DNA from: an uncultured Lachnospiraceae bacterium
Lineage (GTDB): Bacteria; Bacillota; Clostridia; Lachnospirales; Lachnospiraceae
Assembly (NCBI GenBank): GCA_947577185.1
Contig: CANPUE010000004.1
Span: 93,688-157,687, forward strand
Length of the DNA stretch: 64,000 bases
Reading direction: 5' to 3'
A program made the position numbers and the translations under genes. This document shows, in pieces, positions 6,124-64,000 of this stretch; within the stretch, counting starts at the first letter, position 1; each line of letters opens with the position of its first letter. The notes under the pieces were generated by a model that was not told the DNA's origin, ran no database searches, and saw only the letters and a program-made list of their open reading frames with translations.

Positions 6124-6129
6124 ACGATT

Positions 6130-7740
6130 ATGAGGAAACATATACGTTTCAACGTAGCTGAATATATTCGGTTATCAAGAGAGGACGGCGATAAGGCAGA
6201 GAGTGACAGTATTGGAAATCAGAGGAAACTGATTACAGATTACTTAAAAGACAAGGACGACTTTGTTTTGTATGACACTTACATAGATGACGGTTTCACG
6301 GGAACAAATTTTAACCGCCCCTCATTTAAGAGAATGATTGCAGACATAGAAGCCGGAAAAGTGAATTGTGTGATGGTAAAAGACCTTTCCAGGTTCGGAC
6401 GCGATTACATCGACACAGGAAACTACCTGGAACGCTATTTCCCGGATCACGAAGTGCGTTTCATTTCCATTACGGATCATATTGACAGCATGAAGCAGGC
6501 CTATGATATGCTGCTGCCTATAAAGAATATCTTTAATGAGCAGTACGCACGGGACATTTCAAAAAAAGTCCATGCTTCCATGAAAACCAAACAGAGGGCG
6601 GGGGAATTTATAGGAGCGTTTGCTTCCTACGGCTATCGGAAATCGCCTATTGATAAAAACAAACTGGTTATTGATGAATATGCCGCCGGAATTATCCGCA
6701 AAATCTTCAAACTCTATATAGACGGATATGGAAAAATCCGTATCGCAGCTATACTGAATGAGGACGGAATTGTATGCCCGTCTGAATACAAAAAGATAAA
6801 CGGAGATCATTACAGAAACAGCAACCGTTTAGACAGTACCTCCTACTGGACGTATTCAACCATAAACCGTATTCTTCAAAATGAAATGTATATCGGTAAC
6901 ATGGTTCAGAACAGGAAAAGTCAACAAATGAGAGGGAAATCAAAAGCCCAGGACAGGGAAGACTGGATTGTAGTAAAAGGCACGCATGAAGCGATCATTG
7001 ATGAGGAAACATGGAATAAGGTACAGGACTTGTTGAAACGCAGGACACGTAATCTCGACCTGAACAGCAACATGAGCATTTTTGCAGGCTTTTTGAAATG
7101 CGGGGATTGCGGCAGGTCTTTAGCAAAGAAAACCGGGACATCGGGACACGGCCGCGGTATTGTCAATTACTATTGCGGGACATATGTACGCTCCGGCAGA
7201 CAATATTGTACTCCACACCCTATACCGCATTTGGTTTTGGAAAAAATCATTTTGGAAGATCTGAATGCGATCATGCAGAACATTGACAATATGCGTGAAA
7301 TCATTGAACAGAACCAGGAAGCAGCCGTTACAGGAAAGCGTGTAAATGAAAATGAGAAAACCCGTCTGACTGCTGAACTGGAAAAAGTACGAAAGCTGAA
7401 AAAAGTGGTTTATGAGGATTACCTGAGTGAACTGCTTTCGAAAGATGAATTTGTCACATATCGGCAGGATTACCTGAAGAAAGAAGACTTACTGGAAAAG
7501 CAGCTTGAAAGCATAGCCAACAGGCAGGACGAAACGACGCCGGATATTTTTGACAGCCCATGGATAAAACGTCTGTTAGAGCATAGGGTGATCGAAAAAT
7601 TGGACAGGAGTATTGTGCTGGAAATGATAAATGAAATAACGGTATCTGAAAATCACAAAATCAAGATCACTTACAATTTTTCCGGCGAATTGGAATCACT
7701 TTTCAAAACAGTATATACCAACAAAGAGAATATCGGCTGA
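6130..7740 (+). CDS. large serine recombinase (resolvase + recombinase + zinc ribbon domains)
   Basis: AEYIRLSREDGDKAESDSIGNQR, VKDLSRFGRDYIDTGNYLE, CGDCGRSL zinc ribbon and C-terminal coiled coil. Confidence 0.95.
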   Translation: MRKHIRFNVAEYIRLSREDGDKAESDSIGNQRKLITDYLKDKDDFVLYDTYIDDGFTGTNFNRPSFKRMIADIEAGKVNCVMVKDLSRFGRDYIDTGNYLERYFPDHEVRFISITDHIDSMKQAYDMLLPIKNIFNEQYARDISKKVHASMKTKQRAGEFIGAFASYGYRKSPIDKNKLVIDEYAAGIIRKIFKLYIDGYGKIRIAAILNEDGIVCPSEYKKINGDHYRNSNRLDSTSYWTYSTINRILQNEMYIGNMVQNRKSQQMRGKSKAQDREDWIVVKGTHEAIIDEETWNKVQDLLKRRTRNLDLNSNMSIFAGFLKCGDCGRSLAKKTGTSGHGRGIVNYYCGTYVRSGRQYCTPHPIPHLVLEKIILEDLNAIMQNIDNMREIIEQNQEAAVTGKRVNENEKTRLTAELEKVRKLKKVVYEDYLSELLSKDEFVTYRQDYLKKEDLLEKQLESIANRQDETTPDIFDSPWIKRLLEHRVIEKLDRSIVLEMINEITVSENHKIKITYNFSGELESLFKTVYTNKENIG

Positions 7741-20525: not shown

Positions 20526-21890
20526 TCACGTTCTTGCCAACACCTCAAACGTCCTGCTGATATTCAGTTTGCCGTAGCCCCATCTCCGATCCGGATAGAT
20601 AATGTTGCTCTCCCGCACCGCCCCCCGGATCAGATCGCTCTTGATCGTCCGGCTCTCCGCATAGGGCGCATAACCGTCGACCACAGCCCATTCCATGAAC
20701 TGAGCTGCGCATCCGGCGGCGAGTGCTGCCGCCATGCTGGCGCCGGAGCGGCTCCCCAAAGCAGTGGAAACCTGTACGCCCGGCGCCGCCAGATCCGGCT
20801 TAATCGTGCTGTTGGCCGTAAACCCTCTCCCTGATTCGGAGAACCAGCTCCCGTTATGTCCATTATATGCGGAAACCGTGATCACATTTTTGGCGTTGGC
20901 GGGTTCCGTCAGCGTCACATCGGGGCTTGGTTCCAGAAATCTGGCTTCCCCGTCAATAAACTCTGTGATCGGAAGCCACAAATGGTATCTGCCGACATTG
21001 CGGACGCCGTCCTGTTCCGAAGGTGTCACAATTATGCTCCAAATACCGGGTGACGGATTCTCAAAGCGGAAAAAGATCAGTTCGTTGCCGGAACGTTTCT
21101 CAACCAATGACAGTCCTGTATAGATTTTGGTTCTGTCAAACAGAAAACTGTATTCATTGTCAGTCATATTACGGAAATCGATTACAGAAGTCATTTCTCC
21201 GCCCGGCGTGCGCAGTACCACACTGTAAATATCGATCCGGTTTCCCCAAAGTTCCATGCAAAACCCTTTTGTATTTTCTCCGACACGCAGTTCAATCTGT
21301 TCCGGCATCATCGCCGTATAATGATGCTCTTTATCTCCTTCATTGCCGCCGCAGACAACGACCGCCCTGCTCCTTCTTGTAGCGATCTGATCAAGATAGG
21401 ACGCCAACGGGGAGTTTCCTTCATGGTCTCCCATATTGGTGCCGATCCCCAGCACGATCACGACCGGCCTTTGAAATACAATCGCCATGCCCTCGAGATA
21501 TTTTACCGCTTCCATGATATCATTCTCCTGATAGGCCTCGGCGTCATCGTCGATCAGATAAAAATCTCTGAGATACTGTTTGGCTCCCTTTAGCTTTACA
21601 ACTGCGATATCCGAGCGCGGCGCGGCGCCTCGAAATGTCAGTCCCTGATCGATGATACTGCCTGCTGCCGCGGAGGCCATCGCAGTCCCGTGCCCGTTTT
21701 CATCCGTGGACGGTACAATCGTCAGCGGCTGGCCGCTCTGTATCGCGCGGTCAATCTCCTCCCGCTTATATTCCGTCCCGTATAAAAAACCTTCGGGCGG
21801 CTCTCCGGACTGTATCGTCTGATCCCATATCGAGAGGATTCTGCTGCTGCCGTCCTCATTCTTAAAGACATCCAGATCATATCGTATCCC
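20526..21890 (-). pseudogene. C-terminal part of an S8 (subtilisin-like, Csp-type) protease with catalytic His and Ser motifs, split by element 2
   Basis: Frame open from GIRYDLDVFKNEDGSSRILSIWDQ through NGHGTAMAS and RSGASMAAALAAG. The track starts it at 21680 but coding continues upstream to the GGGG core. Confidence 0.9.
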
Positions 21891-23121
21891 CTCTGGTGTT
21901 CAATAAATGCGGCTTCCATTGAATTGTGATCTGTTGTTCCTTATAAACGACGATCTTATCAACTGCGTTTTCGATCAGCTCCTTTGCAGATCCGCCGCCC
22001 TGTACGTTTGACTGCACCTGCAGGAGAACAGCTTCTTCCACAAACAGTGCATCGGCCCTGACCACACAGTCTTCCATTGCGCTAAAGTAACGTCGGGGAC
22101 AGGAAAAGTACGGGTTTTTTCCTCCGCGGCAGCGCAGATTGCTTTTGCAGGCGCCGCATACCAGCTTTCCGACAAGGGGATGTGTCCGGTTGTCGCGAGG
22201 CATCCGCCCCTTTCCCCGCCCCTTCTGTACCATATCAAAGATTTCCCTGTCGATAAGGGGTTCGTGATGCCCTCTGCCAACGAGCCATTGCGCACGGGGT
22301 TTTAAATGATTCTTTCCGCCGACAAAATCTTTTTCGTATTTTTTCTGTACAATGTTTCCGATGTAGACCTCATTTCTGAGAATCTGGCATATCGTACTAC
22401 TATTCCACAGAAACTTCTCTCCTTTGGGCACGCGGCTGGTCTTTCCCTTTTTTATCTTAAATTCAATGGGTGTCTGAACCTGCATCTCATTGAACATCCT
22501 TGCGGTCTCCACAGATGTGTACCCTTCCACCGCCAGAGAAAAAATCCACCTGACGATCTGTGCCTCGTCTTCCGCAATCACAAGCGCATGTCTGTCATCC
22601 GGGGATTTTTCATATCCAAACGGACTGTTTGCACTCACATACTGCCCCTTTTCTTTCCTGACAGCGAGCGAAGAACGCACCTTTACCGATATGTCTTTGC
22701 TGTACAGATCATACAGCAGGTTCTTAAAATTCACATCGATTCCGGCGCCGTTTCCCAAAAGAGCCGCACTGTCATAATGGTCATTGACAGAAATAAACCG
22801 AATCCCCAGAAACGGAAAGATCTGTTCCAGGTATGCGCCAAGCTCTATATAGTCTCTTGCAAATCTGGAAAAATCCTTCACAAGAATACAGTCGAGCTCA
22901 CGTTTTTTTGCCCTTTTCAAAAGTTCCCGCACCGCCGGGCGCTCGAAATTTGTGCCTGTATAACCGTCATCACAAAACTCCGTCAGTTCATACTCTGCGA
23001 AGTGTTCCGCGGCATATTTTCGCAGAAGGAGTCTCTGCGTGGTGATACTGCCGCTTTCATCTTTCGTTTTATCATCCTCTTTCGAGAGACGGATATAGAC
23101 CGCGATCCGACAGACTGCCAT
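21877..23121 (-). CDS. serine recombinase 3 of trio
   Basis: VCRIAVYIRLSKEDD, VKDFSRFARDYIELGAYLE, CGACKSNLRCRGG. Last codons (GDTI*) lie in S8-gene sequence. Confidence 0.93.
   Translation of the reverse strand: MAVCRIAVYIRLSKEDDKTKDESGSITTQRLLLRKYAAEHFAEYELTEFCDDGYTGTNFERPAVRELLKRAKKRELDCILVKDFSRFARDYIELGAYLEQIFPFLGIRFISVNDHYDSAALLGNGAGIDVNFKNLLYDLYSKDISVKVRSSLAVRKEKGQYVSANSPFGYEKSPDDRHALVIAEDEAQIVRWIFSLAVEGYTSVETARMFNEMQVQTPIEFKIKKGKTSRVPKGEKFLWNSSTICQILRNEVYIGNIVQKKYEKDFVGGKNHLKPRAQWLVGRGHHEPLIDREIFDMVQKGRGKGRMPRDNRTHPLVGKLVCGACKSNLRCRGGKNPYFSCPRRYFSAMEDCVVRADALFVEEAVLLQVQSNVQGGGSAKELIENAVDKIVVYKEQQITIQWKPHLLNTRGDTI
21896..21906 (+). repeat. element 2 left att arm (GTGTTCAATAA)
   Basis: Starts 5 nt inward of CCCC (21888-21891); inverted match to 31200-31210. 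Confidence 0.65.
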
Positions 23122-24880
23122 CCGAAACACCTTCCTTCCCGGAAAACAGGGGCCTCCTTCTGAAGGCAAAAATCACTCTCACCCGGTGATCCGGATGAAT
23201 TTCGATCCTGTCGATCAGTGCCCGTACCGCCTCTGCGGTCAGTGCCCCGTTTCCCTTCGTCATGTTCCTGAGAACCTGCTTTTTTTCAGCGCTCTGCGCT
23301 TGTGTCATCCTGAGGTTTTCTAAAACAGAAGCCTTCTCTTCCCGCAAAGAAACAATCTTTTTATCATTCTCTTTCTTTGCCTGTCTGAAACAGCCTTCGT
23401 CCATCTCCCCCATCCGGTATTGAAGATACTGTTCACTCCCATGCCGTATCAAACTCTCCAGCCTTTTTTCTAATGCTGTGAGTCTGCCGCCGCATTCTTT
23501 TTTCAGGATCTCCGTTTTTATCTCCATCTCTGTTTTCATTTCCATTTCTGTCTTCATTTCCATTTCTGTCTTCATTTCCATCTCTATCTCTATTTCTTTG
23601 TCACCGTATTCCGGCAGCGTCCGGGGACACATCGCGGACAAGGCGATTTCCTGCTGCAGTGCCTTTTTCACAAGTTCCGTAAGCGCGCACAGCGTTATGC
23701 GCTTCTTCTCACAGCGCCATCCGTCTATCCTCCCTGACCTGGGACAATGATAACTGTATGTCCTCACCCTGTCCTTTGAGCCCAGTTCTTTTACCGCACA
23801 GATCCGTTTCATTTTTGCTCCGCACTCACCGCAGTAGAGGACTTCCGCAAAGATATCCTCCTCCATGGGAACTTTTTTAGAAAATCCGTTTTTGTTACAG
23901 TACACACTGTTTTTTTCAAACTTTGCGGCCGCTTCAAAGAAACGTTCCTCACTGACAAGCGCCTGATGGGTATGCTCTTTTATCGACCAGTCCCCGGAAT
24001 CGATGTCGTGCCGCCCGCGCATCCTGTAGTCTTTCCCGCAGGTCCGCCCCTGGACCAGACAACCCATATACACCGGATTTGTCAGGATCCGTTTCACGGT
24101 AGCGTGCGGCCATTGTTCCAGCCTGCTCTGCTCCTGACAGTAAATCTCTCCTGTCTTATGGTACTGCGCAGGTCTGACGATCCTGTTTTCATAGAGCCAG
24201 ACAACAATCTCTTTCATGTTCCTGTCAGAAAGAAATAAGTCATATATCTTTTTTACAATGTCGGATGTGATTTCTTCCGCCATAAGGCATTTCCGATCTC
24301 CCATCCTCCCGATTCTGTATCCATACGGCGCCACACAGCCCGTATAGTTCCCCTGCTCCCACTGCGCTTTTCTGCTTGCCTTTACTTTTGTGGAAATGTC
24401 TCTCGCATACAGCTCATTTATCAGGTTTTTCAGGTGAAGACGAAACGCCTCATTGCGTCCTGACTGATTCATGCTGTCAAAATGGTCCGTGACAGCTATG
24501 AAGCGCACTCCCAGAAAAGGAAATATCTTTTCGATGTAGTTTCCTGTTTCAATATGATCCCTTCCCAGCCGGGACAGGTCTTTGACTACGATACAGTCAA
24601 TTTTGCGCATCCGCACGTCCCGCATCATCTGTTCAAACCCTTCCCGCTTAAAGTCTGTCCCGCTCTTCCCGATATCCATATAGCAGTCATATACTTCCAT
24701 GTCCCTGTGCTGTCCGATGAATGCTTTTGCAATTTCCACCTGCGCCGCAATCGATTCCCGCTTTCCTGCGTCCGCATCCACCGAGATCCTTGCATAGATG
24801 CCGACGGAAAACACCCGTTCCGGCTTCCCGCCTGCCAGTATAGTTACCGCCGCCTGTTCTCTTATCGATGACTCTGACAT
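23072..24880 (-). CDS. serine recombinase 2 of trio
   Basis: SVGIYARISVDADAGKRESIAAQ, VKDLSRLGRDHIETGNYIEK, CGECGAKM zinc ribbon. Confidence 0.93.
   Translation of the reverse strand: MSESSIREQAAVTILAGGKPERVFSVGIYARISVDADAGKRESIAAQVEIAKAFIGQHRDMEVYDCYMDIGKSGTDFKREGFEQMMRDVRMRKIDCIVVKDLSRLGRDHIETGNYIEKIFPFLGVRFIAVTDHFDSMNQSGRNEAFRLHLKNLINELYARDISTKVKASRKAQWEQGNYTGCVAPYGYRIGRMGDRKCLMAEEITSDIVKKIYDLFLSDRNMKEIVVWLYENRIVRPAQYHKTGEIYCQEQSRLEQWPHATVKRILTNPVYMGCLVQGRTCGKDYRMRGRHDIDSGDWSIKEHTHQALVSEERFFEAAAKFEKNSVYCNKNGFSKKVPMEEDIFAEVLYCGECGAKMKRICAVKELGSKDRVRTYSYHCPRSGRIDGWRCEKKRITLCALTELVKKALQQEIALSAMCPRTLPEYGDKEIEIEMEMKTEMEMKTEMEMKTEMEIKTEILKKECGGRLTALEKRLESLIRHGSEQYLQYRMGEMDEGCFRQAKKENDKKIVSLREEKASVLENLRMTQAQSAEKKQVLRNMTKGNGALTAEAVRALIDRIEIHPDHRVRVIFAFRRRPLFSGKEGVSDGSLSDRGLYPSLERG
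23508..23600. repeat. 18-bp tandem repeat encoding (MEMKTE)n inside recombinase 2
   Basis: TTTCCATTTCTGTCTTCA repeated; protein EIEMEMKTEMEMKTEMEMKTEMEIKTE. Confidence 0.9.
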
Positions 24881-26530
24881 TTAATGCACCCCCTCTTCGC
24901 AGCGCCTGCCGTTATCTGACTCACCTTCCGTCATATGCAGTCCGGCAGACAGTCCGTTATACCTTACAGTGACATGGATCCGACAGTCTTCATAAACAAA
25001 AATATGCTTCACAAATGTAATCAGCGTCGTTCTGTCAAGTGCGGTAATCTCAAACCCGCGCTTCATGCGCTCCAGATCAATGCCTGCCGCCGCGCCCGAC
25101 TGAAACAGCCTCTTTCTGGTCTCCTCCTGACGCTCCGCCGCCTGTTGCAGCTCATCGCAGCGTTTTTCAAAAATCCGGCTGTAATTTGTATAATCTTCTT
25201 CCGTAATAATCTTTTGCTCCAAGTCCGCAGAAAGGCCTGCACGCAGCTGTAAATAGTTATCCTGCTCCTGACGCAGCCGTTTGATCTGCGCACCAAAAAC
25301 CGCCGTTTCCTCAAAAGGGACGCGCATCCGCTTCAGCTCCGCCAGCACGCTGTCCTGATCCAGAAACAGTGCCGTCTGCTGTCTGAGCAGTGTCAGGAGC
25401 ACCATATTCAGATCTTCCTCCGGAATCCTGTGCCTGCTGCAGTCTCCGTCTGCATTTTTCCTGCCGCAGACAAAAACCGCCGTTTCCTTGCCATGTTTCC
25501 TGTTGACCCTTCGAGTCATTGGCTGTCTGCAGTCCCCGCAGAATAACAGGCCCGCATAAAGGTGCGCTTTTTTCTCTCCGGCTCCTGCGCGCACATCCAC
25601 CCTGAGCAGATCCTGCACGGTCTCGAAGTCCTCCCTGGAAACGACCGCCGCATGCGTTCCCGGCACTTTTATCCATTCTTCTTCCGGTTTTTTGACAATT
25701 TTATTGACCTTATAATTTATTTTTTCCGCTTTTCCCTGCACCAGCGTTCCGGTATAACACTCGTTTGTAAGGATCCTCCTGACGGCAACAGACGACCATC
25801 CGGTTCTGGCTCCCGCAGCAAACGTTGTCTGATACCGCTCGCCCCGCATCTTTTTATATTCCATCGGGGAAAGTACCCCCATCTCCTCCAGCCGCCGGGC
25901 AATCGCCAGACAGCTGTACCCTTCCAGCTTCCAGGCAAAGATCCGTTTCACGATACCGGCCGCATATGGATCCGGTATGAGCCGATTCCTGTTCTCACTG
26001 CTCTTTTGATATCCATAAACCGCAAACGAACCGATAAATTCTCCCCGTTCCCGCCTGAGTTTCTTTTGACTGCGCACCTTGGCCGAAATATCCTGTGCGT
26101 ACGAATCATTGACAAAATTCCTGACCGGCACGATGAGCGCAGTCTCGTCCGCATCCGCCGTCAGGGAATCAAAATGATCCGTGAGCGCGATGAATCGCAC
26201 ACAAAAAGCCGGGAAGGTCTTTTGAATCAACCGCCCGGCTTCTATATAGTCTCGTCCCAATCTGGATAAATCTTTTACGATCACGCAGTTCACGTTTCCC
26301 GCTTCGATATCTTTCATCATCCGTTTCAATCCGGGTCTGTCAAAATTTGTCCCGGAATAACCGTCATCTACATAAATATCGTAAATCTCCATGTTGTCCT
26401 GTTTTCTGACATACGATCGGATCATCTCTCTCTGTGAGCTGATGCTGTCGCTTTCCGCTTTGCTCCCATCCAGATCATCGCGGCTTAAACGCAGATACAT
26501 GGCCGCGTTATAAAATTCTGCTGCTTCCAT
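24881..26530 (-). CDS. serine recombinase 1 of trio
   Basis: NAAMYLRLSRDDLDGSKAESDSISSQ, VKDLSRLGRDYIEAGRLIQ, CGDCRQPM. Confidence 0.93.
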   Translation of the reverse strand: MEAAEFYNAAMYLRLSRDDLDGSKAESDSISSQREMIRSYVRKQDNMEIYDIYVDDGYSGTNFDRPGLKRMMKDIEAGNVNCVIVKDLSRLGRDYIEAGRLIQKTFPAFCVRFIALTDHFDSLTADADETALIVPVRNFVNDSYAQDISAKVRSQKKLRRERGEFIGSFAVYGYQKSSENRNRLIPDPYAAGIVKRIFAWKLEGYSCLAIARRLEEMGVLSPMEYKKMRGERYQTTFAAGARTGWSSVAVRRILTNECYTGTLVQGKAEKINYKVNKIVKKPEEEWIKVPGTHAAVVSREDFETVQDLLRVDVRAGAGEKKAHLYAGLLFCGDCRQPMTRRVNRKHGKETAVFVCGRKNADGDCSRHRIPEEDLNMVLLTLLRQQTALFLDQDSVLAELKRMRVPFEETAVFGAQIKRLRQEQDNYLQLRAGLSADLEQKIITEEDYTNYSRIFEKRCDELQQAAERQEETRKRLFQSGAAAGIDLERMKRGFEITALDRTTLITFVKHIFVYEDCRIHVTVRYNGLSAGLHMTEGESDNGRRCEEGVH

Positions 26531-26549
26531 CCGTCTTCCCCCGTCCACA

Positions 26550-26822
26550 CTATATCATGATCTGTGTCTTTCTCTCCGCAAGCAGGAGCACCCTGTCTTC
26601 GATCAGATCGGCCGCCCCTTCCGCGAAGCCTGTCTGTAAGATGTAGTTTCCGACCTTGAATGCATACGGATTTCCGGCCTGCCCGATAAAAGATCTCACG
26701 CGGCTCTCTACGCTCTTTTCGGTGTCGATCACAATGTCCTCTATCCTGACAAGTTCCTCCCGCTTCAAATCCATGATGTTCCTGTCCCGCATACGGTCCA
26801 GTTCTTCTGCTGACAGATTCAT
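26550..26822 (-). CDS. DUF6870-like recombinase-associated protein
   Basis: 90 aa, LVRIEDIVIDTEKSVESRVRSFIGQAGNPYAFKVGNYILQTGFAEGA; directly upstream of the recombinase trio. Confidence 0.65.
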   Translation of the reverse strand: MNLSAEELDRMRDRNIMDLKREELVRIEDIVIDTEKSVESRVRSFIGQAGNPYAFKVGNYILQTGFAEGAADLIEDRVLLLAERKTQIMI

Positions 26823-26879
26823 ATCCAGCCTCTTTTTATGATCTTAATCTCTACATATTTATTCCTGCCGCAATTTGTC

Positions 26880-28268
26880 CTATTCCATATGCTGCAAATG
26901 ACCCTTTGGCGGCTTTCTCCCATATCCGGTGATCACTGCCGCCAACAGCATCACCAGCATACACAGAGAATAATAATTCACAAACGGTACAGAGGCCGGC
27001 GCCACTGCAAACGATTCACCAAACTGCGCAGTCTGCTGCGCCGGGATCACACAGTGCACCGTCCAGGGTGCCAGGAAGCAGAAGACACAGCCTGTACAAT
27101 CCATCAGATTCGCCCGGCGGTACCGGTTCACCCCGGCTTTTTCCCCGATCTCACTGACCAGATCTCCGAGCGCCACAATAGCAACCGAAATTACCCCAGT
27201 CACCATACTCAGCAGACCTACAGATAAAATAATGGTCGCTTCTGTGCTCTGTTCTTTTTTTGCGAAGCGCTCCAAAAGCGCTCTCACATCCTCAAACAGA
27301 CCACTGCACTCCATCACACCCAATAGCGCAAACACCGCAATCAGCATGGCAACCGTTCCCGCAGTTCCCGAAATGGCTTCTATGACCGCTCCGGTCACCG
27401 AAAAGCCGCCGGGAAACGCGATGAGTTCATCAACCGTATAGACACCGGAAAGCAGTCCGGCGGCTGCTCCCGCCAAAATTCCCCAGGACAGGGCGGTGAT
27501 CAGGTGTTTCCGCATCATGCACAAAGTGATGATGACCGCAGGGACGATCAGCATGACCAGACTGAGCGGATCAACTTCTCCGCCCGCTGCACCGACTGCC
27601 GCGCCTCCGTCAGTCGTTTTGGAAAACAGCAGAAATAAGACAAGCGCCCCGGCTGCCGCAGGCAGACTGTAACGCGTCCTCGTCTTCACCACCATCCCCA
27701 GATCCGCATGCTGCGTCGCGGAAGATGCGATCGTCGTATCCGAGATCGGCCCCAGGTTATCGCCGAACGCAGCGCCCGACACAATGGCGCCGATCATAAA
27801 TTCCGGCGCTGCCCCCGCCATCACCCCTACCGGAAACAGGATCGGAATCACCACAAAATAGGTCCCCACCGAGGTGCCTGTCGCAAAGGCTAACAGGCAG
27901 GTAATGAGAAACGCCGCTGCCACGAAAAGTTTCCCTGTAAGACCGGCCGCCACCACATATGCCGCGATCGTCTGCACCGCGCCGCTGGCAGAGATCAGTT
28001 TGCCGGAAACCGCCGCCAGCATCACTGCCAGCACGATCACGGCAAACATTGGTTTGCTCAGGCCATATACCAATGCCTCTCCGTATGCCTTTTCATCCTT
28101 TGCAAAAACAACGCCTGTCACCAGTGCCGCAAAAAATGCAAGCACATACCCGTTGACATTGGACTGACTAAACGCCGCCCATCCGATCATTGCCGCCGCG
28201 GCAAGAAGCGGTGTCATTTTCCCGATCTTTCCCAGACGAAATTCTATCCTCTTTGCTTTCTGATCCAT
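26880..28268 (-). CDS. NhaC-type Na+/H+ antiporter family protein
   Basis: Polytopic; FATGTSVGTYFVVIPILFPVG, GAIVSGAAFGDNLGPISDTTIASSATQHADLG. Start trimmed to the ATG after AAAGGAG. Confidence 0.85.
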   Translation of the reverse strand: MDQKAKRIEFRLGKIGKMTPLLAAAAMIGWAAFSQSNVNGYVLAFFAALVTGVVFAKDEKAYGEALVYGLSKPMFAVIVLAVMLAAVSGKLISASGAVQTIAAYVVAAGLTGKLFVAAAFLITCLLAFATGTSVGTYFVVIPILFPVGVMAGAAPEFMIGAIVSGAAFGDNLGPISDTTIASSATQHADLGMVVKTRTRYSLPAAAGALVLFLLFSKTTDGGAAVGAAGGEVDPLSLVMLIVPAVIITLCMMRKHLITALSWGILAGAAAGLLSGVYTVDELIAFPGGFSVTGAVIEAISGTAGTVAMLIAVFALLGVMECSGLFEDVRALLERFAKKEQSTEATIILSVGLLSMVTGVISVAIVALGDLVSEIGEKAGVNRYRRANLMDCTGCVFCFLAPWTVHCVIPAQQTAQFGESFAVAPASVPFVNYYSLCMLVMLLAAVITGYGRKPPKGHLQHME

Positions 28269-28284
28269 TCTGATACTCCTTTGC

Positions 28285-30831
28285 TTACTTTTTTCGATCA
28301 TCGCTGACCGCTCCCGGTTCTGATTCGACCGGATCCATGAGCAGGCCCGGTATTTTCATCTCCATCAAATGCTGCATCTGCATGATTTGATTTCCTGAGA
28401 TAAATCCGTCAGGCAAAAAAGCATTCCGCAGATTGGCCCCTCTCAAATCTGCTCCGTTTAAATCTGCTCCACTCAAATCCGCTTCTCCCAGATCTGCTTC
28501 CCTTAAATTTGCTCCCGCAAAACGAACGCTTCTTAAATCTGATTTTCTCAGATCTGCTTCTCTTAAATCTGCCTTTTTTAAATTGGCTCCGCTTAAATCT
28601 ATTGCGCTCAGATCCACTCCGGCTAACTGTAATCCCTCAAAATCTGCCTTACTGGTTAAGCTGAGATTTCTTTCTTTAACACGTGATGGAACCAAAACAA
28701 AGATTTCTCTAAAGTTATGTTTTAATATGTCTTCCCTGTTAATGCATTCGACATCATGATACCAGCCGATGCACTCCCCTTCTTTCAGACAGGGTTCCAG
28801 CGCACATCTGAATATCCTCACAGTATTCGTCAAAACATTGATCATATTATGGTAGACATTTTCCCCCGAATTTCTATTATAATGGTTTATTCCCCCAAAT
28901 TGCAGCATATCCGAAAAAAAATGGGGTAAATAGTTCCGCCTGCGTTCCTCAAAAATAAAATCCAGCTTATACTGATGTTCTTCACTGTACTTTATGCGCA
29001 GATATAAAAATTCCAGTACTTTTTCAGGTAATTGCATGGATCGGAACAAATCATGGATCTGCCCTGTAATATAGGCAGTCACTTCCTGTATCTCCATTGT
29101 CTCACAGATCTGATACATCGCATTCAATTCATAAAATATCTTTTCACAAAGAAAAAAATCTCTGATATTATTATGATAGAACTCCACCGCACCTTTTCCA
29201 TTCGTTTTCCAATAATTACATAATGCGTAACAATGCTGTACAATTTCTTTTAGTTTTAATTCCTCAATCCCCAGCTGATCAACGATTTTTGATATTTCCC
29301 TGCTGGTCAGAAATAATTTTCTGTTGCCGCTGCAAAACATCTGATACGCGATTTCCGCACTCAAACGATACAATAGGCCTTTGTATTTTTTTATCCCATG
29401 ATGATAAACGCCGTTTCCGTTAGCAAACACAGAATTGTACTCTGTGTCAGATAGTTCTTTATAAAAGATCCGGCGGTACAAAAGCCATTTATTGTGCTTT
29501 GCTTCTTCGCTGATTCCCCCCGCCGCAATCATATACATGATCATTGGTGTATCACATATGCTGTCTGTTTCTTCATTCTCTTCGTCCACAATATACGCTA
29601 TTCCTGTTTTCTCACAATCTGACAGCCCCGTTTTTCGATACTTTTCTACCCACTCCCACCTTTGGAACGCATCAAAATGTCTCAATGCAATATATCCTTT
29701 TCTAATATCCAGCCTGTCCACGTCCAGGTATTGGGGTCTGGTCGTAACGATCATTTTATAATCCCTAAATGCGTCAAAAATCTGATAAATATAATACTCC
29801 GAGTTTGCATTGATGCCTTCCACCATGCAGAGTTCATCAAATCCGTCAAATACAATGAGCGGATTTTTATAATGTCTCTTAAATTCATCCACAGATCCTA
29901 ATCTCAAATACTTTAAAATATCGTTTACGATTGTATCACTGGAAAATCTCATTTCCTCAGGAATAATGTCCCTCAGTCTGATGCATAAAAGCGTTTTATC
30001 TGAAAAAAGCCTCTGCCATTCCTCTTTCTTTTCTATGTAAAGATACGACAGATAAGATACCAGACTCGTTTTTCCAACGCCTGCATCACCTTCAATGAAT
30101 AAAATCTCCCCCTGATGCCTCTCATCCCGAATAACATGCATGGCAAATCTGCTCATAAAGTCAACTGCATTTCCGCCGACTCCCCGCGTCAAATCCGAAT
30201 CTTTCGTCCAGTTCACATAATGAGGCAGTACAAACAGATCTTTCAGCCGCACGTTCTTACTGCCCTCTTCCCTGTGAAGGAACAGATTTTCTACAAAGCT
30301 GTTATAATATTGTTCATTTGTATCCCATACGCCTTCCCCGTCGGCGCTCTTTTCCCACTTCTCCTTCCTGTTTTCCTTTTTCACCGCATATAAAAAAACA
30401 GAAGCCAGAAAGCCGCTGATCCTGTCTTCCTCTGCCCTCTGTAACAATTCTTTTTTCTTTGATTCAGGAATCCCTGTATCCCCCTGAATCAGTTTCACCA
30501 TGTTTTGCATCAGATCATCCCGCAGATGCGATGAAAGAACAGGTACTACTTCTTTCTCAAAAATATTGTCTATTTGATTGATTACAGGCTCCGAGTCACA
30601 GTTGTCCCGGATACTGCTGTGAACATTCTCTCTGTTATGCAACAGATTACTTGCCATTGTTTTGTCCACGTCAATTGCGTGTCCTTTTCTGCCGCGGGCT
30701 TCATACACCGTCCCCCTGAGCATTAAAATTTCCAGCAAAAGGCGCGTAAGTTCAAGGTCCTGATCATATGGTTTCTGCATTGCCATTTTCAGGCATTTTA
30801 CATAGGATGCAAACGATACTCTTTCCTCCAT
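28285..30831 (-). CDS. NACHT-type STAND NTPase with C-terminal pentapeptide repeats
   Basis: Walker A EGDAGVGKTSLVSYL; Walker B PLIVFDGFDEL; TTRPQYL sensor; C-terminal GANLKKADLREADLRKSDL...ADLSGADLNGADLRGANL. Confidence 0.88.
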   Translation of the reverse strand: MEERVSFASYVKCLKMAMQKPYDQDLELTRLLLEILMLRGTVYEARGRKGHAIDVDKTMASNLLHNRENVHSSIRDNCDSEPVINQIDNIFEKEVVPVLSSHLRDDLMQNMVKLIQGDTGIPESKKKELLQRAEEDRISGFLASVFLYAVKKENRKEKWEKSADGEGVWDTNEQYYNSFVENLFLHREEGSKNVRLKDLFVLPHYVNWTKDSDLTRGVGGNAVDFMSRFAMHVIRDERHQGEILFIEGDAGVGKTSLVSYLSYLYIEKKEEWQRLFSDKTLLCIRLRDIIPEEMRFSSDTIVNDILKYLRLGSVDEFKRHYKNPLIVFDGFDELCMVEGINANSEYYIYQIFDAFRDYKMIVTTRPQYLDVDRLDIRKGYIALRHFDAFQRWEWVEKYRKTGLSDCEKTGIAYIVDEENEETDSICDTPMIMYMIAAGGISEEAKHNKWLLYRRIFYKELSDTEYNSVFANGNGVYHHGIKKYKGLLYRLSAEIAYQMFCSGNRKLFLTSREISKIVDQLGIEELKLKEIVQHCYALCNYWKTNGKGAVEFYHNNIRDFFLCEKIFYELNAMYQICETMEIQEVTAYITGQIHDLFRSMQLPEKVLEFLYLRIKYSEEHQYKLDFIFEERRRNYLPHFFSDMLQFGGINHYNRNSGENVYHNMINVLTNTVRIFRCALEPCLKEGECIGWYHDVECINREDILKHNFREIFVLVPSRVKERNLSLTSKADFEGLQLAGVDLSAIDLSGANLKKADLREADLRKSDLRSVRFAGANLREADLGEADLSGADLNGADLRGANLRNAFLPDGFISGNQIMQMQHLMEMKIPGLLMDPVESEPGAVSDDRKK

Positions 30832-30984
30832 TCCGATATCCCTTTGTATTTCAATTCATGTGCCAGTCATCTGCCCCATCTCCCGTATCCCGGATGGAAG
30901 CCCAACTATGCCCCAACTCCATGGTAACTACTTTCCTCCTCTCCCGTGTTATCCTGTAAGAAACAGACAGAAAGGAAAAACACA

Positions 30985-31155
30985 ATGGAAAATATCATCC
31001 CCTTAATCTTTTCACTCGTCGGCCCGGATCATTTATTGTCCGCCATTGCGCTTATTGTTTTCATTCTGATCCTGATCCAAAAAGGAAGGATCAAAATATG
31101 TTTCGACATAAAAAACGGGAAAATAAAAATAAGGATGCAATATCACCATAAATAA
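30985..31155 (+). CDS. 56-aa single-TM protein
   Basis: MENIIPLIFSLVGPDHLLSAIALIVFILILIQKGRIKICFDIKNGKIKIRMQYHHK, preceded by AGAAAGGA. Confidence 0.5.
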   Translation: MENIIPLIFSLVGPDHLLSAIALIVFILILIQKGRIKICFDIKNGKIKIRMQYHHK

Positions 31156-31199
31156 GCAGGCCAAAACAGGTAACGTCCCATACCTCTCCAGCCTTACGG

Positions 31200-31210
31200 T
31201 TATTTAACAC
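31200..31210 (-). repeat. element 2 right att arm (GTGTTAAATAA on minus strand)
   Basis: Starts 5 nt inward of the core at 31215-31218; inverted match to 21896-21906. Confidence 0.65.
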
Positions 31211-31214
31211 ATAA

Positions 31215-31538
31215 CCCCGTATCCACAAAACCAATGATCACACCGTCTCCCTGCAGTTCCAGCGGCGGGCCCTGCACCCGCAGATTGCCCGTCTCGACCA
31301 GATTGTCTGCCTGAAACGTCTGCATCAGCCCATACAGGTCAGGAATGGAGGCATACGTGTAAGTTCCCAAAGAAACCGGCGGAAGCTCCGCTCTCTCCAA
31401 ATACGCGATTGAAAATTCTTCATCGAACGGCTGAAAGCAAAAGTCAATATTCCATCGATTCAGAGTGCCCTCCGGCAGTCTGTAATCTATGATGACGTCC
31501 GCATAGTCGTTTGACAGGATTCTTTCTTTACATGTCAT
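31215..31538 (-). pseudogene. N-terminal part of the S8 protease (108 aa ending GVIIGFVDTG), split by element 2
   Basis: MTCKERILSNDYADVIIDYRLPEG...GPPLELQGDGVIIGFVDTG is the Csp-type S8 N-terminus with catalytic Asp motif; LCVK* tail is element sequence. Confidence 0.9.
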
Positions 31539-31619: not shown

Positions 31620-32516
31620 CTATTCTATATGCACCGGTATCACGCACAGTGCAAAGTACCCTCTTCCGCCGGTTCCAAACAACAGACTGTAAGGGGGATA
31701 TTCTTTATCAAACATGCGGAGAAACTGTTCAAACGTCAGCATATCGTTCTTCTCAATCGTGCTGCCGTTTTGCATTGTAAAGTGACTTCCGATATGCGCG
31801 ATATATTTCTGCGACAGAATCTTGACCGCATAGATCACCGTCTTGTCCGCGGTATTGATCTGCCGTCCCAGCATCTCACTGAGGATCCCCAGGATCAGCC
31901 GCTGCTCATAGACGAAAAAAATCTGTGTGCGTTCTCCCGCATCAGACAGATAGGTCAGACGAAAGCACATTACTTCACCGGAGCAGAAATCCTCTCCGCT
32001 GTAATTTTCGCTCACGATATGCGCATCCAGTCGAAACATATCCTGCGCCGCCTGAATGACGGCTTTTTCCAGAGACTCTCTCTCATCATCTTTCGGACCG
32101 TGCACCCATTTGTTTGGCACCCTCCCGGCTATGGCATGATCCTCAATCATAACGTGGCCGTTGAGCCAGCCGATACAGATTCCAAGAAAATGCCGCACCG
32201 ATTCGACAGAATAATTCTGTCTTTCCAGCTCCTCTTCCAGCGCAGGAATCGTCTTGTCGCGCATGTTGTCATGAAGTTTCCTGTGCATATCGTATCCGCT
32301 GTAGTGAATAGACTGCATATAGGCCTCTTCCTGTGCAAAATGCTTCACGGTATAACTCTTAAAATATTTGACGCCCTCTCTGCAGGCGTATTGCTGCTTT
32401 TCCGGTTCCTCGTTGAGTGCGATGAGTTTTCCTACAATGGCAAAAAGCTTCTGGTGTGCTTTATCAACCTCCTCCACACCCAGATTAAAACGGCTGTTCC
32501 ATTTCACATCGTTCAT
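31620..32516 (-). CDS. bacteriohemerythrin with C-terminal CheX-like domain
   Basis: Hemerythrin motifs DKAHQKLFAIVGKL, HFAQEEAYM, HRKLHDNM, WLNGHVMIEDH; C-terminal ~150 aa of different type. Confidence 0.75.
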   Translation of the reverse strand: MNDVKWNSRFNLGVEEVDKAHQKLFAIVGKLIALNEEPEKQQYACREGVKYFKSYTVKHFAQEEAYMQSIHYSGYDMHRKLHDNMRDKTIPALEEELERQNYSVESVRHFLGICIGWLNGHVMIEDHAIAGRVPNKWVHGPKDDERESLEKAVIQAAQDMFRLDAHIVSENYSGEDFCSGEVMCFRLTYLSDAGERTQIFFVYEQRLILGILSEMLGRQINTADKTVIYAVKILSQKYIAHIGSHFTMQNGSTIEKNDMLTFEQFLRMFDKEYPPYSLLFGTGGRGYFALCVIPVHIE

Positions 32517-32565: not shown

Positions 32566-34227
32566 CTACTCTACCACGAGCAGATCGTCCGGATTTTCCA
32601 GGCTGTTACTCCTGATATCAATGACCGGCCCTCCGGTTCCTTCGATATACTCTCTCGTGATCGTGATCCTGCCGATGTTATCATCTTTCGGGATCTCATA
32701 CATAATATCCAGCATAAACTCTTCTATGATCGCACGCAGCGCCCTGGCTCCGGTCTCTTTTTCCATGGCTTTCTCCGCGATCGCTTCCAGCGCGCCTCGG
32801 TCAAATTCCAGTTTGACCTCGTCAAGCGCCAATAGCTTCTGATATTGCTTCAAAATGGCGTTGCGCGGCTCACTTAAAATTTTTACCATCATTTCCCTGC
32901 TGAGTCCTTCGAGCGTGAAAATAATGGGCAGACGTCCGATAAACTCCGGTATCATGCCGAATTTCCTGATGTCCTCGACCGTCACTTTGCTCAAAATGTT
33001 CTTCTCTTTATCATATTTATCTTTCAGTTCCGCGTTGTAGCCGATCGATGTCTTCTTATTTAACCGCTGCTTGATAATGTCATCCAGATCCGGAAAAGCG
33101 CCGCCGCAGATGAACAGAATATTTCTGGTGTTGACCGTTGCCAGCGGCACCATGGCATTCTTGGAATTGGCGCCTACCGGCACTTCCACTTCCGCCCCTT
33201 CCAGAAGTTTCAGCATTCCCTGCTGTACAGACTCCCCGCTGACATCTCTGGAATTGGTATTCTTTTTCTTGGCTATCTTGTCGATTTCATCGATAAAAAT
33301 GATTCCCTGCTCGGCCCTTTCCACATCATTGTCTGCGGCCGCAAGCAGTTTGGATACGACGCTTTCAATATCGTCGCCGATATATCCCGCTTCCGTTAAC
33401 GATGTCGCGTCAGCAATCGCGAGCGGCACATCCAACAGTCTCGCCAGCGTCTTAACCAGATAAGTCTTGCCGCAGCCTGTCGGACCGATCATCAGCATGT
33501 TCGACTTCTCGATCTCAATCTCGTCCATCGTATTCGTTGCCACCCGCTTATAGTGATTATAGACCGCCACGGAGATTACTTTTTTGGCATGTTCCTGTCC
33601 TACAACAAAGTCGTCCAGCTTTGCCTTGATCTTATGCGGGGGCATAATATTTTTGATATCGATGACAGGCTGCTCTTCCTGTCTTTTTTTCTTCTTTTTG
33701 ATCTTCTGTTTATTGGGAATGCCGCCGTCCCCCTGCAGATCGGCCAGATTCACAAAGCTGATATTTGGGAATCCTTTGCCGTTGTTAAAGTCTGTCATAT
33801 TGCCGCCCAGATTGCCCGGATGATTCAATAATCCCTGATAGTCGAACTGGCTGACCGTATCCATTGTCTTATGCATACAGTCATTGCAGACACAAATATG
33901 ATTCGGCAGTCTGAACATCTCTCCTGCCTTACTCTCCGGTCTGCGGCAGATAAAACATACGTCTTCGTATTCACCGGACTTCCCATTCCGGTCACTGTCT
34001 GAAGGTTTCTTATCCTTAGTGTCGGCTTTTTTTATTTCTTCCTTTTTTATTTCCTCATGATCCGCTTCATTGTTTCTGACCTCATTGTTTCTTTCTTCCT
34101 CCTGCGGCGTACCGCCTCCGGCAAGCAGTTCCTCTTTCTGTTCCTCTACATCATCCAATTCCCTGAAATCCCACTGATTCTCTTCTTTATCGTCCTGACC
34201 GAATCTTTCGTCGTCGTTCATATTCAC
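32566..34227 (-). CDS. clpX: ClpX-like AAA+ ATPase with zinc finger and extended acidic N-terminus
   Basis: CFICRRPES...CVCNDC zinc finger; GPTGCGKTYLVKTLARLLDVP; IIFIDEIDKIAKK; GRLPIIFTLEGL. Confidence 0.9.
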   Translation of the reverse strand: MNMNDDERFGQDDKEENQWDFRELDDVEEQKEELLAGGGTPQEEERNNEVRNNEADHEEIKKEEIKKADTKDKKPSDSDRNGKSGEYEDVCFICRRPESKAGEMFRLPNHICVCNDCMHKTMDTVSQFDYQGLLNHPGNLGGNMTDFNNGKGFPNISFVNLADLQGDGGIPNKQKIKKKKKRQEEQPVIDIKNIMPPHKIKAKLDDFVVGQEHAKKVISVAVYNHYKRVATNTMDEIEIEKSNMLMIGPTGCGKTYLVKTLARLLDVPLAIADATSLTEAGYIGDDIESVVSKLLAAADNDVERAEQGIIFIDEIDKIAKKKNTNSRDVSGESVQQGMLKLLEGAEVEVPVGANSKNAMVPLATVNTRNILFICGGAFPDLDDIIKQRLNKKTSIGYNAELKDKYDKEKNILSKVTVEDIRKFGMIPEFIGRLPIIFTLEGLSREMMVKILSEPRNAILKQYQKLLALDEVKLEFDRGALEAIAEKAMEKETGARALRAIIEEFMLDIMYEIPKDDNIGRITITREYIEGTGGPVIDIRSNSLENPDDLLVVE

Positions 34228-60850: not shown

Positions 60851-63800
60851 TCAATAGCTCATATAACTGATATTCAGATCCACATCCCCGTTGATCCCGG
60901 TCACTTTTCCCTTGGAGGAATACTGCCACATATCATATCTGGTCAGGTTATATGTCGGCTTCTCGGCATATTGTGCGAGCCAGATTTTGTACCCTGTCAG
61001 GCTGCCGGTGTTGATATGAGTCGTAAACCATGTTTTGTTCGCATAAATACCCGCAGAATATCCTGAATTTTGGATCGTATTGCAAAATGCCTTGCAGACT
61101 GCGGTCCTCGTGCCGATGTCGATCGCATCTCCCCGGCCCCTGCTTGGTTCCACGTCCAGGAACACCGGATAATTCAGTCCATAACCGCTGATCAGTTTTA
61201 GCGCCATAGACGCTTCCTCGATGGCTTCCACTTCATTTACTGCCTGAGTGACAAAATAAACGCCGACCTTCAGACCTGCCGCTTTCGCGCCCTGAATATT
61301 GCTTGCAAATTTGGTGTCTTCGATCAGTGCCCCCGTCGTGGAGCCGCGATAGCCGCAACGGATAATCGCATAGGATACCCCGGAATTTTTAACCGCATTC
61401 CAGTCGATTTTTCCGTTGTGTCTTGATACATCAATGCCAAACGTGCCGGAACCCGAAGAGAGTCGTCCGTCATTTCCAAATGAGTATCTTGCGCCCTGGA
61501 TGACCTGATCTCCGGTTACGGGCTTGCCGTTCTTATCGAAGAAATATGTAGATCCGTCGATCACCTGCCATCCGGTATAACTGTATTCTCCCTGTGATTT
61601 TCTCAGATACAGTTTCTGATCTTTGTAGTAATCGGCATAAGTCGCCTCTACATATTTTCCTTCCGCATTTTTGACATAAACCTGATTACCACTTTTATCT
61701 TTCAGTTTTGAAGTCGTATCACCTGACAGGTCTTTCACAACGGTCACTTTCCACTCGCCTTTGACATTTCCACAGACTCCGGTGATCGTTGCCGTTCCTG
61801 CTGAAACGCCTGTCATAACGCCGTCTTTGTCCACTTTGACAATCTTTTCGTTATCACTTGTCCAGGTCACAACGCCGCCAGCCGGATCTGTTACGCCCTT
61901 CACGGTTCCGGTCTTACCCACCTGAATATTGCCGCTGCCCGTAACCGTAATGGATTTGTACTCAGTCTCTGCGGCAACGACCGCGACTGTCCACGTACTT
62001 TTGGCATTTCCGCAGGTTCCGGTAATGGTCGCCGTCCCCACTGACACACCTGTCATAACGCCGTTTTTGTCCACCGTAACGATTTTGGTATTATCGCTTG
62101 TCCAGGTGATCAGGCCGCCCGCCGGGTCCGTTGTTCCCGTCAAAGTTCCTGTCTTGCCGACCCGAATGTTGCCGCTGCCTGAAATCGTGAGTGACTTGTA
62201 TTCAATGTCCGTGACAGTGACCGTACAACTCACGTTAACGGAATCTTTTCCGATGGAAACCGTGGCCGTAATCGTCGCGCTTCCTATGCTCTCGCCTTTT
62301 ACATTCACAGATGAACCGCCGCCGCTCACGCTGACAACCGAGGCGTTACTGTTGCTCCAGGATACCGAATAACTGTCGTTTGTGCTCACGGAGAGCGCAA
62401 GTGTGCGGCTCTCACCCTTTTTCATCGTAAGATTGCTCAGTCTGGGGTTCAGAGCATTCAGCTTTTCCCGGTCTGTCGGCTGTGTGGGTGCCGGAGGATC
62501 CGGGGTTACCGGCGGAGGATCCGGCGTTTCCGTACCCGTACCGCCTGATCCGTTTCCGGTATTACCGCCTCCGGTACTTCCTGATCCGTCTCCCGGATTA
62601 CCGCCTCCGGTACTTCCTGATCCGTTTCCGGTATTACCGTCTCCGGTACTTCCTGATCCGTCTCCCGTACTACCGCCTCCGGTACTTCCTGATCCGTCTC
62701 CCGTACTACCGTCCCCGGTACTTCCTGATCCGTCTCCCGTACTACCATCTCCGGTGCTTCCCGATCCGTCTCCCGCACTGCCGTCTCCGGTGCCTCCCGA
62801 TCCGTCTCCCGTACTACCGTCTCCGGTGCTTCCCGATCCATCTCCCGGAAGGCTTTCGCCGCCGGTTCCGGATCCCGTTTTGTCATCTCCGATGGTACGT
62901 CCTGTTACGCGCTCCCCTTCGTTGACCGTCTTTACAAACGTGCCCGCCGCACCGATCAGTGCCGGATTCGGTATGTCTTCCTTCTTGATCTCCTGATAAT
63001 TTCCGTCGGCATTCTGTTCTGTCTTTGTAGACTCTACCCACTCCACCGTATCTTTCAGTACAGATTCCACCGCCGTATCCTGGACAGCCGTATCTTCTAT
63101 GGCAACGTTGACCTCAGCCTCCGTCTTAATCTCATCTGCCACATCAACTTTTTTATAAGTAATGGTATCAGTGACTTTCAGCGTTTCCCCCTGTGACGGA
63201 AACTGATAGGCTGCATATTCTCCGCCCTGCATCGGTACTATTTTTATCGTATAAGTCCCTGCCGCCACGCCTGTCTGATAAATAATACCGTCTTTGTCCT
63301 CGTCTTTCAGATTAAAGTTTTTCCCGTTGTCACCCGTTATCTCAACTTCAAACGGCACGCCGCCAATCAGTTTATTGGTAGCCTTATTGACGAATTTCAC
63401 TTTAATGTCTGCCTGAATCGATGTAAGATTCATACCGACTTCTACCACTTTGGATCCCGTCTGTGTACCGGGAGTCTGCGTATCCTGTTCCGGTTCCGTG
63501 CCGGATTCGTTTTCGATATCCACCATCTGGGATACTCTGGAGGCTTCGGCATTGGAGACCGCCAGAAGCCCGCTCTCCCCGACTACACCGATCTGCTCGA
63601 TTTCCGAGCCGAGCGCAGCAAAAGACTCCACCTGTCTGGAGGTGCCTTTCGCTCCGGCATACACAATACCCGTTGCAATGGCAGCCATCAGAATCGCACA
63701 GCCAAAGATCGCTACAACGCGGTCAAGAGAACTCATCTCAGAGATAAAATGCCCAAACCTCGCGAAAATATTTTCATATTCTTCGTCGTCTTCCTCATCA

Positions 63801-64000
63801 TCGTCTTCGTCTATCTCATCCTCATAATATTCATAGTATTCTTCATCGTCCTCGTCGTCATCCTCGGACTCTCCGTAATATTCCTCATCGTCCTCGTCAT
63901 CTTCATCCTCAGACTCTCCGTAATATTCCTCATCGTCCTCGTCATCTTCATCCTCGGACTCTCCGTAATATTCCTCATCGTCCTCGTCATCTTCATCCTC
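60851..64000 (-). CDS. GH25 lysozyme, partial at window edge: acidic repeat cytoplasmic region, TM, Cna-B-like domain, Gly/Ser/Asp linker, Ig-like domains, cell-wall-binding repeat, GH25
   Basis: [32 protein letters not shown]. The frame of the 60851-63736 ORF stays open upstream to base 64000 (EDEDDEDDEEYYGES repeats), so the listed ATG at 63736 is probably internal. Confidence 0.88.
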   Translation of the reverse strand, partial: EDEDDEDDEEYYGESEDEDDEDDEEYYGESEDEDDEDDEEYYGESEDDDEDDEEYYEYYEDEIDEDDDEEDDEEYENIFARFGHFISEMSSLDRVVAIFGCAILMAAIATGIVYAGAKGTSRQVESFAALGSEIEQIGVVGESGLLAVSNAEASRVSQMVDIENESGTEPEQDTQTPGTQTGSKVVEVGMNLTSIQADIKVKFVNKATNKLIGGVPFEVEITGDNGKNFNLKDEDKDGIIYQTGVAAGTYTIKIVPMQGGEYAAYQFPSQGETLKVTDTITYKKVDVADEIKTEAEVNVAIEDTAVQDTAVESVLKDTVEWVESTKTEQNADGNYQEIKKEDIPNPALIGAAGTFVKTVNEGERVTGRTIGDDKTGSGTGGESLPGDGSGSTGDGSTGDGSGGTGDGSAGDGSGSTGDGSTGDGSGSTGDGSTGDGSGSTGGGSTGDGSGSTGDGNTGNGSGSTGGGNPGDGSGSTGGGNTGNGSGGTGTETPDPPPVTPDPPAPTQPTDREKLNALNPRLSNLTMKKGESRTLALSVSTNDSYSVSWSNSNASVVSVSGGGSSVNVKGESIGSATITATVSIGKDSVNVSCTVTVTDIEYKSLTISGSGNIRVGKTGTLTGTTDPAGGLITWTSDNTKIVTVDKNGVMTGVSVGTATITGTCGNAKSTWTVAVVAAETEYKSITVTGSGNIQVGKTGTVKGVTDPAGGVVTWTSDNEKIVKVDKDGVMTGVSAGTATITGVCGNVKGEWKVTVVKDLSGDTTSKLKDKSGNQVYVKNAEGKYVEATYADYYKDQKLYLRKSQGEYSYTGWQVIDGSTYFFDKNGKPVTGDQVIQGARYSFGNDGRLSSGSGTFGIDVSRHNGKIDWNAVKNSGVSYAIIRCGYRGSTTGALIEDTKFASNIQGAKAAGLKVGVYFVTQAVNEVEAIEEASMALKLISGYGLNYPVFLDVEPSRGRGDAIDIGTRTAVCKAFCNTIQNSGYSAGIYANKTWFTTHINTGSLTGYKIWLAQYAEKPTYNLTRYDMWQYSSKGKVTGINGDVDLNISYMSY
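62560..62850. repeat. short tandem repeats encoding a (GSTGDG)n-like linker
   Basis: Protein DGSGSTGDGSTGDGSGSTGDGSTG; DNA CCTGATCCGTCTCCCGTACTACC units. Confidence 0.9.
63863..64000. repeat. 45-bp tandem repeats encoding EDEDDEDDEEYYGES
   Basis: Three near-identical 45-bp units up to the window edge. Confidence 0.92.

Follow-up and report, generated by a model that had tools for sequence, protein, structure and literature searches.

A non-viral 9.3-kb element with three serine recombinases, a probable sporulation-gene-intervening element, splits a Csp-type protease gene in a Lachnospiraceae bacterium

The known elements that intervene in sporulation genes are scattered cases in sigK, spsM, spoVFB, gerE and yabG. 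The skin element, a serine recombinase element in the mother-cell gene sigK of B. subtilis and C. difficile, can be removed with in-frame restoration of its host gene; it is prophage-like and carries one recombinase, its excision is demonstrated and its directionality factor (RDF) is known (CD1234) (PMC5025042). The yin element, described in yabG of a single strain of C. botulinum, is also prophage-like with one recombinase, and the C. difficile YabG protein processes CspBA and pre-pro-SleC (PMC10747680). The gin element in gerE of Bacillus cereus ATCC10987 excises during sporulation; its cargo is variable and includes restriction-modification genes, its recombinases are ~22–26% alike and dispersed, with girC apart from girAB, and its RDF is GirX, a protein of 42 aa (PMC5595907).

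Here we describe, in a stretch of 64,000 nucleotides from an uncultured Lachnospiraceae bacterium (the window), a Csp-type S8 protease gene (csp) that lies in two pieces around a 9,327-bp element with GGGG at both ends. As in the cases of skin, gin, vfbin, yin and SPbeta, a sporulation or germination gene (here one of Csp type) is split, its frame is restorable, and the intervening DNA brings its own site-specific recombination enzymes. We consider it probable that the 9.3-kb element is a sporulation-gene-intervening element, which would be removed in sporulating cells to rebuild csp. In make-up it comes closest to gin, with which it shares a non-viral nature, a late sporulation gene as target, three serine recombinase genes, in-frame reconstitution and, within its family, variable cargo with restriction-modification genes (PMC5595907). 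It differs from gin in that csp, and elsewhere sleC, takes the place of gerE, in that all three recombinases lie in one operon behind a DUF6870 gene, and in that the 90-aa DUF6870 protein is only a candidate for the part played by GirX; furthermore, excision is demonstrated for gin (PMC5595907) and proposed for the element in the window. It resembles skin in occupying a mother-cell gene that can be restored in frame, and yin in occupying a late protease gene of the same pathway, but it is not prophage-like and carries three recombinases instead of one (PMC5025042, PMC10747680). The streptococcal triplet serine-integrase ICEs likewise place three co-oriented serine integrases beside a disrupted gene and have 2–8 bp repeats and variable modules, but they target mutT, traG and hsdM in non-spore-formers and carry conjugation genes (PMC4701971). 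SCC, with its ccr recombinases, also combines a serine recombinase complex at one end with defence or resistance cargo, but it integrates in a different gene, and membership in SCC was rejected because Ccr profiles score far under cut-off on the recombinases of the window (best CcrA/B/C match 99.7 bits, against a cut-off of 900).

The insertion leaves the catalytic Asp in the N half of csp (FVDTG), and the C half holds the His (GHGT) together with the Ser (GASMAA, within SGASMAA). The plus strand reads CCCC at 21888–21891 and again at 31215–31218, a spacing of 9,327 bp that is a multiple of 3, and merging the halves at the common GGGG gives a single frame of 561 aa (GTG GAT ACG GGG ATA CGA TAT). 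A reading of the DNA made before any comparison (the sequence-only reading) had placed the halves at 31538–31215 and 21890–20526 and claimed an exact in-frame restoration; positions, phases and joined codons are right, and the restored frame matches the empty orthologs. Its GGGG junction is correct for this copy and is now refined, the core common to relatives being GG(G), with which the Gly codon begins. The features of the locus are collected in Table 1.

Table 1. Coordinates of the split csp gene, the element and its flanks (positions in the window), and of the split sleC gene of the same genome
Feature	Coordinates	Strand	Basis or remark
Csp-type S8 protease, N half, 108 aa, ends FVDTG (...VIIGFVDTG)	31215..31538	-	orthologous to contiguous gene start in 27 relatives
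Csp-type S8 protease, C half, 454 aa, starts GIRYDLDVF	20526..21890	-	CspB 4i0w, E=2.9e-48
Element end, N-half side: core GGGG (CCCC on +), then GGGGTTATGTGTTAAATAA; family form GGGGagcGTGTTATTATA	31215..31218	.	
Element end, C-half side: ...TTGAACACCAGAGGGG; family form CTTGACAggaGAG|GG	21888..21891	.	
Body of intervening element; 9,327 bp with one core copy	21892..31214	.	
SR3, large serine recombinase, 430 aa, nearest C half	21877..23169	-	Pfam Resolvase + Recombinase
SR2, large serine recombinase, 602 aa	23072..24880	-	Pfam; conserved order
SR1, large serine recombinase, 555 aa	24881..26548	-	Pfam; conserved order
DUF6870 protein, 90 aa, first gene of recombinase module	26550..26822	-	Pfam PF21757, E=1.7e-19; co-occurrence
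NhaC-type Na+/H+ antiporter family protein, cargo	26880..28301	-	Pfam PF03553, E=2e-22
NACHT NTPase with C-terminal pentapeptide repeats, cargo	28285..30831	-	profile match; PADLOC
Hemerythrin-like gene, host flank, upstream of csp	31620..32516	-	sequence reading
clpX-like gene, host flank; same neighbour beside split csp of G039 and G152	32566..34227	-	sequence
Split sleC of the window's genome (G000): element with a single large serine recombinase plus a secreted protein of 368 aa	contig C1 ~201.7-206.2 kb (L142:3716-8205)		

The sequence-only reading had proposed a comparison with relatives lacking the element and had named two different proteases as the alternative to a single split one. 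Of the 75 same-genus genomes with a close ortholog, 72 have it uninterrupted and contiguous across the very codon of the split, and the N and C halves align to one continuous frame of ~566 aa in these relatives, meeting at exactly this codon. Two congeners (G039 and G041) have csp split at the identical codon. Together, the contiguous orthologs and the two matching splits indicate that the fragments are halves of one gene rather than parts of two proteases. In G041, the C half (L032:15140–16519) has Cys in place of the expected catalytic Ser (GACMA), and a search of that genome detected no csp N half.

The PDB matches of the csp C half are germination-specific proteases, including CspB (4i0w, E=2.9e-48) and 9pr8 (E=1.8e-55), and the proposed link of the split protease to germination holds by this homology. 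The NCBIfam profiles for CspBA and CspC, which are exception-type models, score 232 bits (cut-off 1250) and 200 bits (cut-off 675), far under their curated cut-offs, and we therefore read the gene as a Csp-type relative and not as CspBA itself. By homology, it would serve as a germination protease in this organism.

The GC content of the element (47.7%) is close to that of its flanks (47.5%). Reading from the csp C half, the gene order is SR3, SR2, SR1, DUF6870, the NhaC-type antiporter and the NACHT/pentapeptide protein, with the three serine integrases in tandem and in one orientation next to csp. Profile annotation of the genes of the element found no phage or conjugation genes, and since only recombinases, DUF6870, NhaC and NACHT genes are carried, a prophage was rejected. 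The NACHT/pentapeptide protein is possibly a defence protein, with a weak PADLOC match to a HamA-like stretch at residues 54–158 (E=1.8e-5). The DUF6870 protein is a candidate directionality factor of the module; a fold search with its model returned no match with E below 2.8. Between genomes, cargo varies around the DUF6870-SR1-SR2-SR3 module. Specifically, in the G039 element (L031:4195–5896) a MunI-type restriction enzyme and an MT-A70 methylase separate the recombinases from the csp C half, indicating that cargo can lie on either side of the module, while a minimal element in csp beside clpX (G152) consists of the four module genes only, in 5.5 kb.

Homologues of SR3 occur in 8 of 78 congeners and at 79 loci in GTDB species genomes, nearly all of them Lachnospiraceae. 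At 36 of the 79 loci, again almost all in Lachnospiraceae, the Gly codon that follows the catalytic Asp is the precise start of S8 homology, and in most cases the element end cTTGACAggaGAG, or a sequence close to it, stands before this start. At these loci, the module thus interrupts Csp-type and other S8 genes at their catalytic Asp-Thr/Ser-Gly codon, and at two loci it lies in sleC. Of 12 type-A genomes, 10 have an N half that ends at the matching codon, usually followed by GGGGagcGTGTTATTATA, as do 13 of 15 type-B genomes. Among the eight SR3-bearing congeners, the module occupies the csp of the window in three (G000, the window's own genome, G039 and G041), another Csp-type paralog in G076, a third S8 gene in G033 and G063, and sleC in G026 and G059. 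Distant SR3 relatives (<~50% identity) have mostly other or unidentified targets, so the preference for S8 genes and sleC belongs to part of the SR3 family.

On the recombinase tree, the S8 type changes often (24 changes), with the caveat of unresolved deep forks and a long branch for L115. Near-identical recombinases occur even where the S8 types of the targets have hardly anything but the motif in common (L052 and L053); the recognised site must therefore be short. This is what would be expected of a plain parasitic insertion, in which the recombinases recognise a short motif shared by S8 genes (GATACnGGnAT), carriers lose the gene, and halves stay intact only because the event was recent or because paralogs cover the loss. 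We regard this account as unlikely, though it has several observations on its side: the distribution is patchy with recent horizontal spread, other S8 paralogs are present in the window's genome, and some csp genes carry second insertions. The second splits are in csp-B at L071, L087 and L088, with ParA-like or further recombinase genes beyond csp-B site 2 at L071 and L088. They count against developmental excision, as do the csp of G041 with its Cys and missing N half, the recent date of many insertions, the type C S8 targets, for which we know of no germination role, and the finding that csp-A is split in only 3 of 75 congeners, a split that is not fixed in the genus. Because the elements spread horizontally and are patchily distributed, the gene may simply be disrupted in single strains. 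Against parasitic insertion as the general account, both gene halves are retained in 23 of the 27 genomes checked.

SleC is the cortex-lytic enzyme that Csp proteases activate in C. perfringens and C. difficile, and sleC is the gene for the substrate of CspB proteases. In the window's genome, sleC (identified by PDB 9h68, E=2e-131) is likewise interrupted: an unrelated element of ~3.3 kb with one serine recombinase lies at a site that relatives share exactly. Among 74 congeners with sleC, the gene is split in 20, at exactly codon 232/233 in 18 and at codon 173 in 2, and for the codon 232/233 site, contigs of sufficient reach yielded both halves in 11 genomes. Elements with differing ends interrupt csp-B at four sites in 13 of the 27 species of a second genus (L196–L222), and the ends of the later-site elements differ from those at the Asp site. 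Control genes are unsplit (spoIVA in 72/72, sigma-K/E-like genes in 78/78), and spo0A is present in all eight genomes of the genus tested, including that of the window. Since spoIVA is found in 72 of 78 congeners, its absence from the assembly of the window's genome, which is 67% complete, is read as incompleteness. That other elements target sleC and three further csp-B positions, none of which is the Asp motif, points to a preference for the genes themselves, beyond one motif, and speaks against parasitic insertion. The repeated splitting of csp and sleC suggests that germination genes are kept broken and are rejoined by element removal at sporulation.

Recombinases of sleC elements that are ~100% identical occur in hosts whose sleC genes have near-saturated synonymous divergence (0.6–0.78), indicating that many sleC insertions are recent transfers. 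Intact halves by themselves were for this reason rejected as proof of function, and only co-diverging pairs were used to assess selection. In the pair G006/G034, the sleC element (93.5% nucleotide identity) has diverged much as its flanks (95.3%), and synonymous divergence is alike in the recombinase (pS 0.18) and sleC (pS 0.17–0.25). The sleC halves of this pair together differ by 59 synonymous and 4 non-synonymous codon changes, with 26 and 4 in the N half (P=9e-12 versus neutrality) and 33 and 0 in the C half (P=7e-20). In the pair L087/L088, in which the pS of SR3 equals that of csp, the csp C half shows 11 synonymous and 2 non-synonymous differences (P=3e-5). The split halves are thus under strong purifying selection in the two co-diverging pairs, which argues against parasitic insertion; there are only two such pairs, and each could conceivably stem from two independent insertions that happen to match in divergence. 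Split and intact copies in the second genus have similar pN/pS (0.140 and 0.128). The likeness to skin-type elements that had been proposed from the sequence is borne out by repeatedly split csp and sleC genes, by their kept halves and by the selection in these pairs; it fails as to the kind of DNA involved, which is a non-viral element with three serine recombinases and not a prophage.

Genes of the Csp class are required only at a late stage of sporulation, and it is on this basis that we infer excision in sporulating cells. Comparison with empty sites shows that the element was inserted at the GG core in the Asp-Thr-Gly codons. In the proposed developmental excision, the serine recombinases responsible would also cut it out, which, as the sequence shows, would regenerate the exact original gene. 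Excision in sporulating cells, most likely in the mother cell, would rebuild csp while the vegetative line retains the element, which would act as skin does in sigK or gin in gerE. DUF6870 may lend the recombinases directionality. A search of IMG/VR viral contigs for the pattern of the circular junction (attP) gave no match, a negative of little weight.

A CATANNNTA-type −10 box is conserved ahead of both csp and sleC, a hint at the expression expected of late mother-cell genes; C. difficile sleC is sigma-K-dependent (PMC3738446). Upstream of DUF6870, a promoter-like motif, ATARGACA-N12-[CA]ATANNNT[AG], is found in 29 of 51 upstream regions, against 0.005 in shuffles. Its −10 part partly resembles the CATANNNTA box of csp and sleC, and it also precedes DUF6870 in modules with other targets; this conserved motif may supply the timing of the recombinases. 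The late mother-cell type of the −10 boxes bears on a further alternative, a heritable switch, in which a fraction of cells would excise the element at any time, leaving a mixed population, with and without a working germination protease, that hedges its bets, as opposed to a terminal excision in the mother cell. The switch has a precedent in C. botulinum, where integrated and excised forms of yin in yabG were both present throughout the time course (PMC10747680). The −10 boxes of the target genes may tell against it, and we hold it to be improbable. An assembly artefact or chimeric contig, which the incompleteness of the assembly might invite, is refuted for the family and most improbable for this copy, as the same junctions recur independently in dozens of genomes, including those of the cultured isolates Bacterium 1xD42-87, D16-50 and Blautia schinkii DSM 10518.

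We found no csp or sleC target of sporulation-gene-intervening elements in the open-licence papers searched, and the two genes are best read as new targets for such elements. Between a quarter and half of the species in two Lachnospiraceae genera have the Csp–SleC axis hit by one module and several unrelated elements. Beyond the single element, we lean slightly towards a multi-locus programme of DNA rearrangement in gut Lachnospiraceae, in which csp and sleC would be broken in growing cells by unrelated elements and rebuilt only at sporulation, several recombinase families having converged on late germination genes as cost-free homes. If excision is developmental, the elements would help to decide which commensal spores germinate, and late mother-cell genes would be explained as safe sites for mobile DNA. 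Copies of csp and sleC that are called pseudogenes in surveys of spore-former genomes may then be functional. The scale of the phenomenon and its convergence on one pathway would surprise specialists, should excision be confirmed. The element family is also a source of many natural att sites for triplet serine integrases.

Further large serine recombinases lie in the window outside the element: one of 538 aa at 6124–7737 on the plus strand, which is 38% identical to SR1, and another in a 547-aa frame that ends at the start of the window. At the opposite end of the window (60854–64000, minus strand) lies a long acidic repeat frame made up of EDEDDEDDEEYYGES units.
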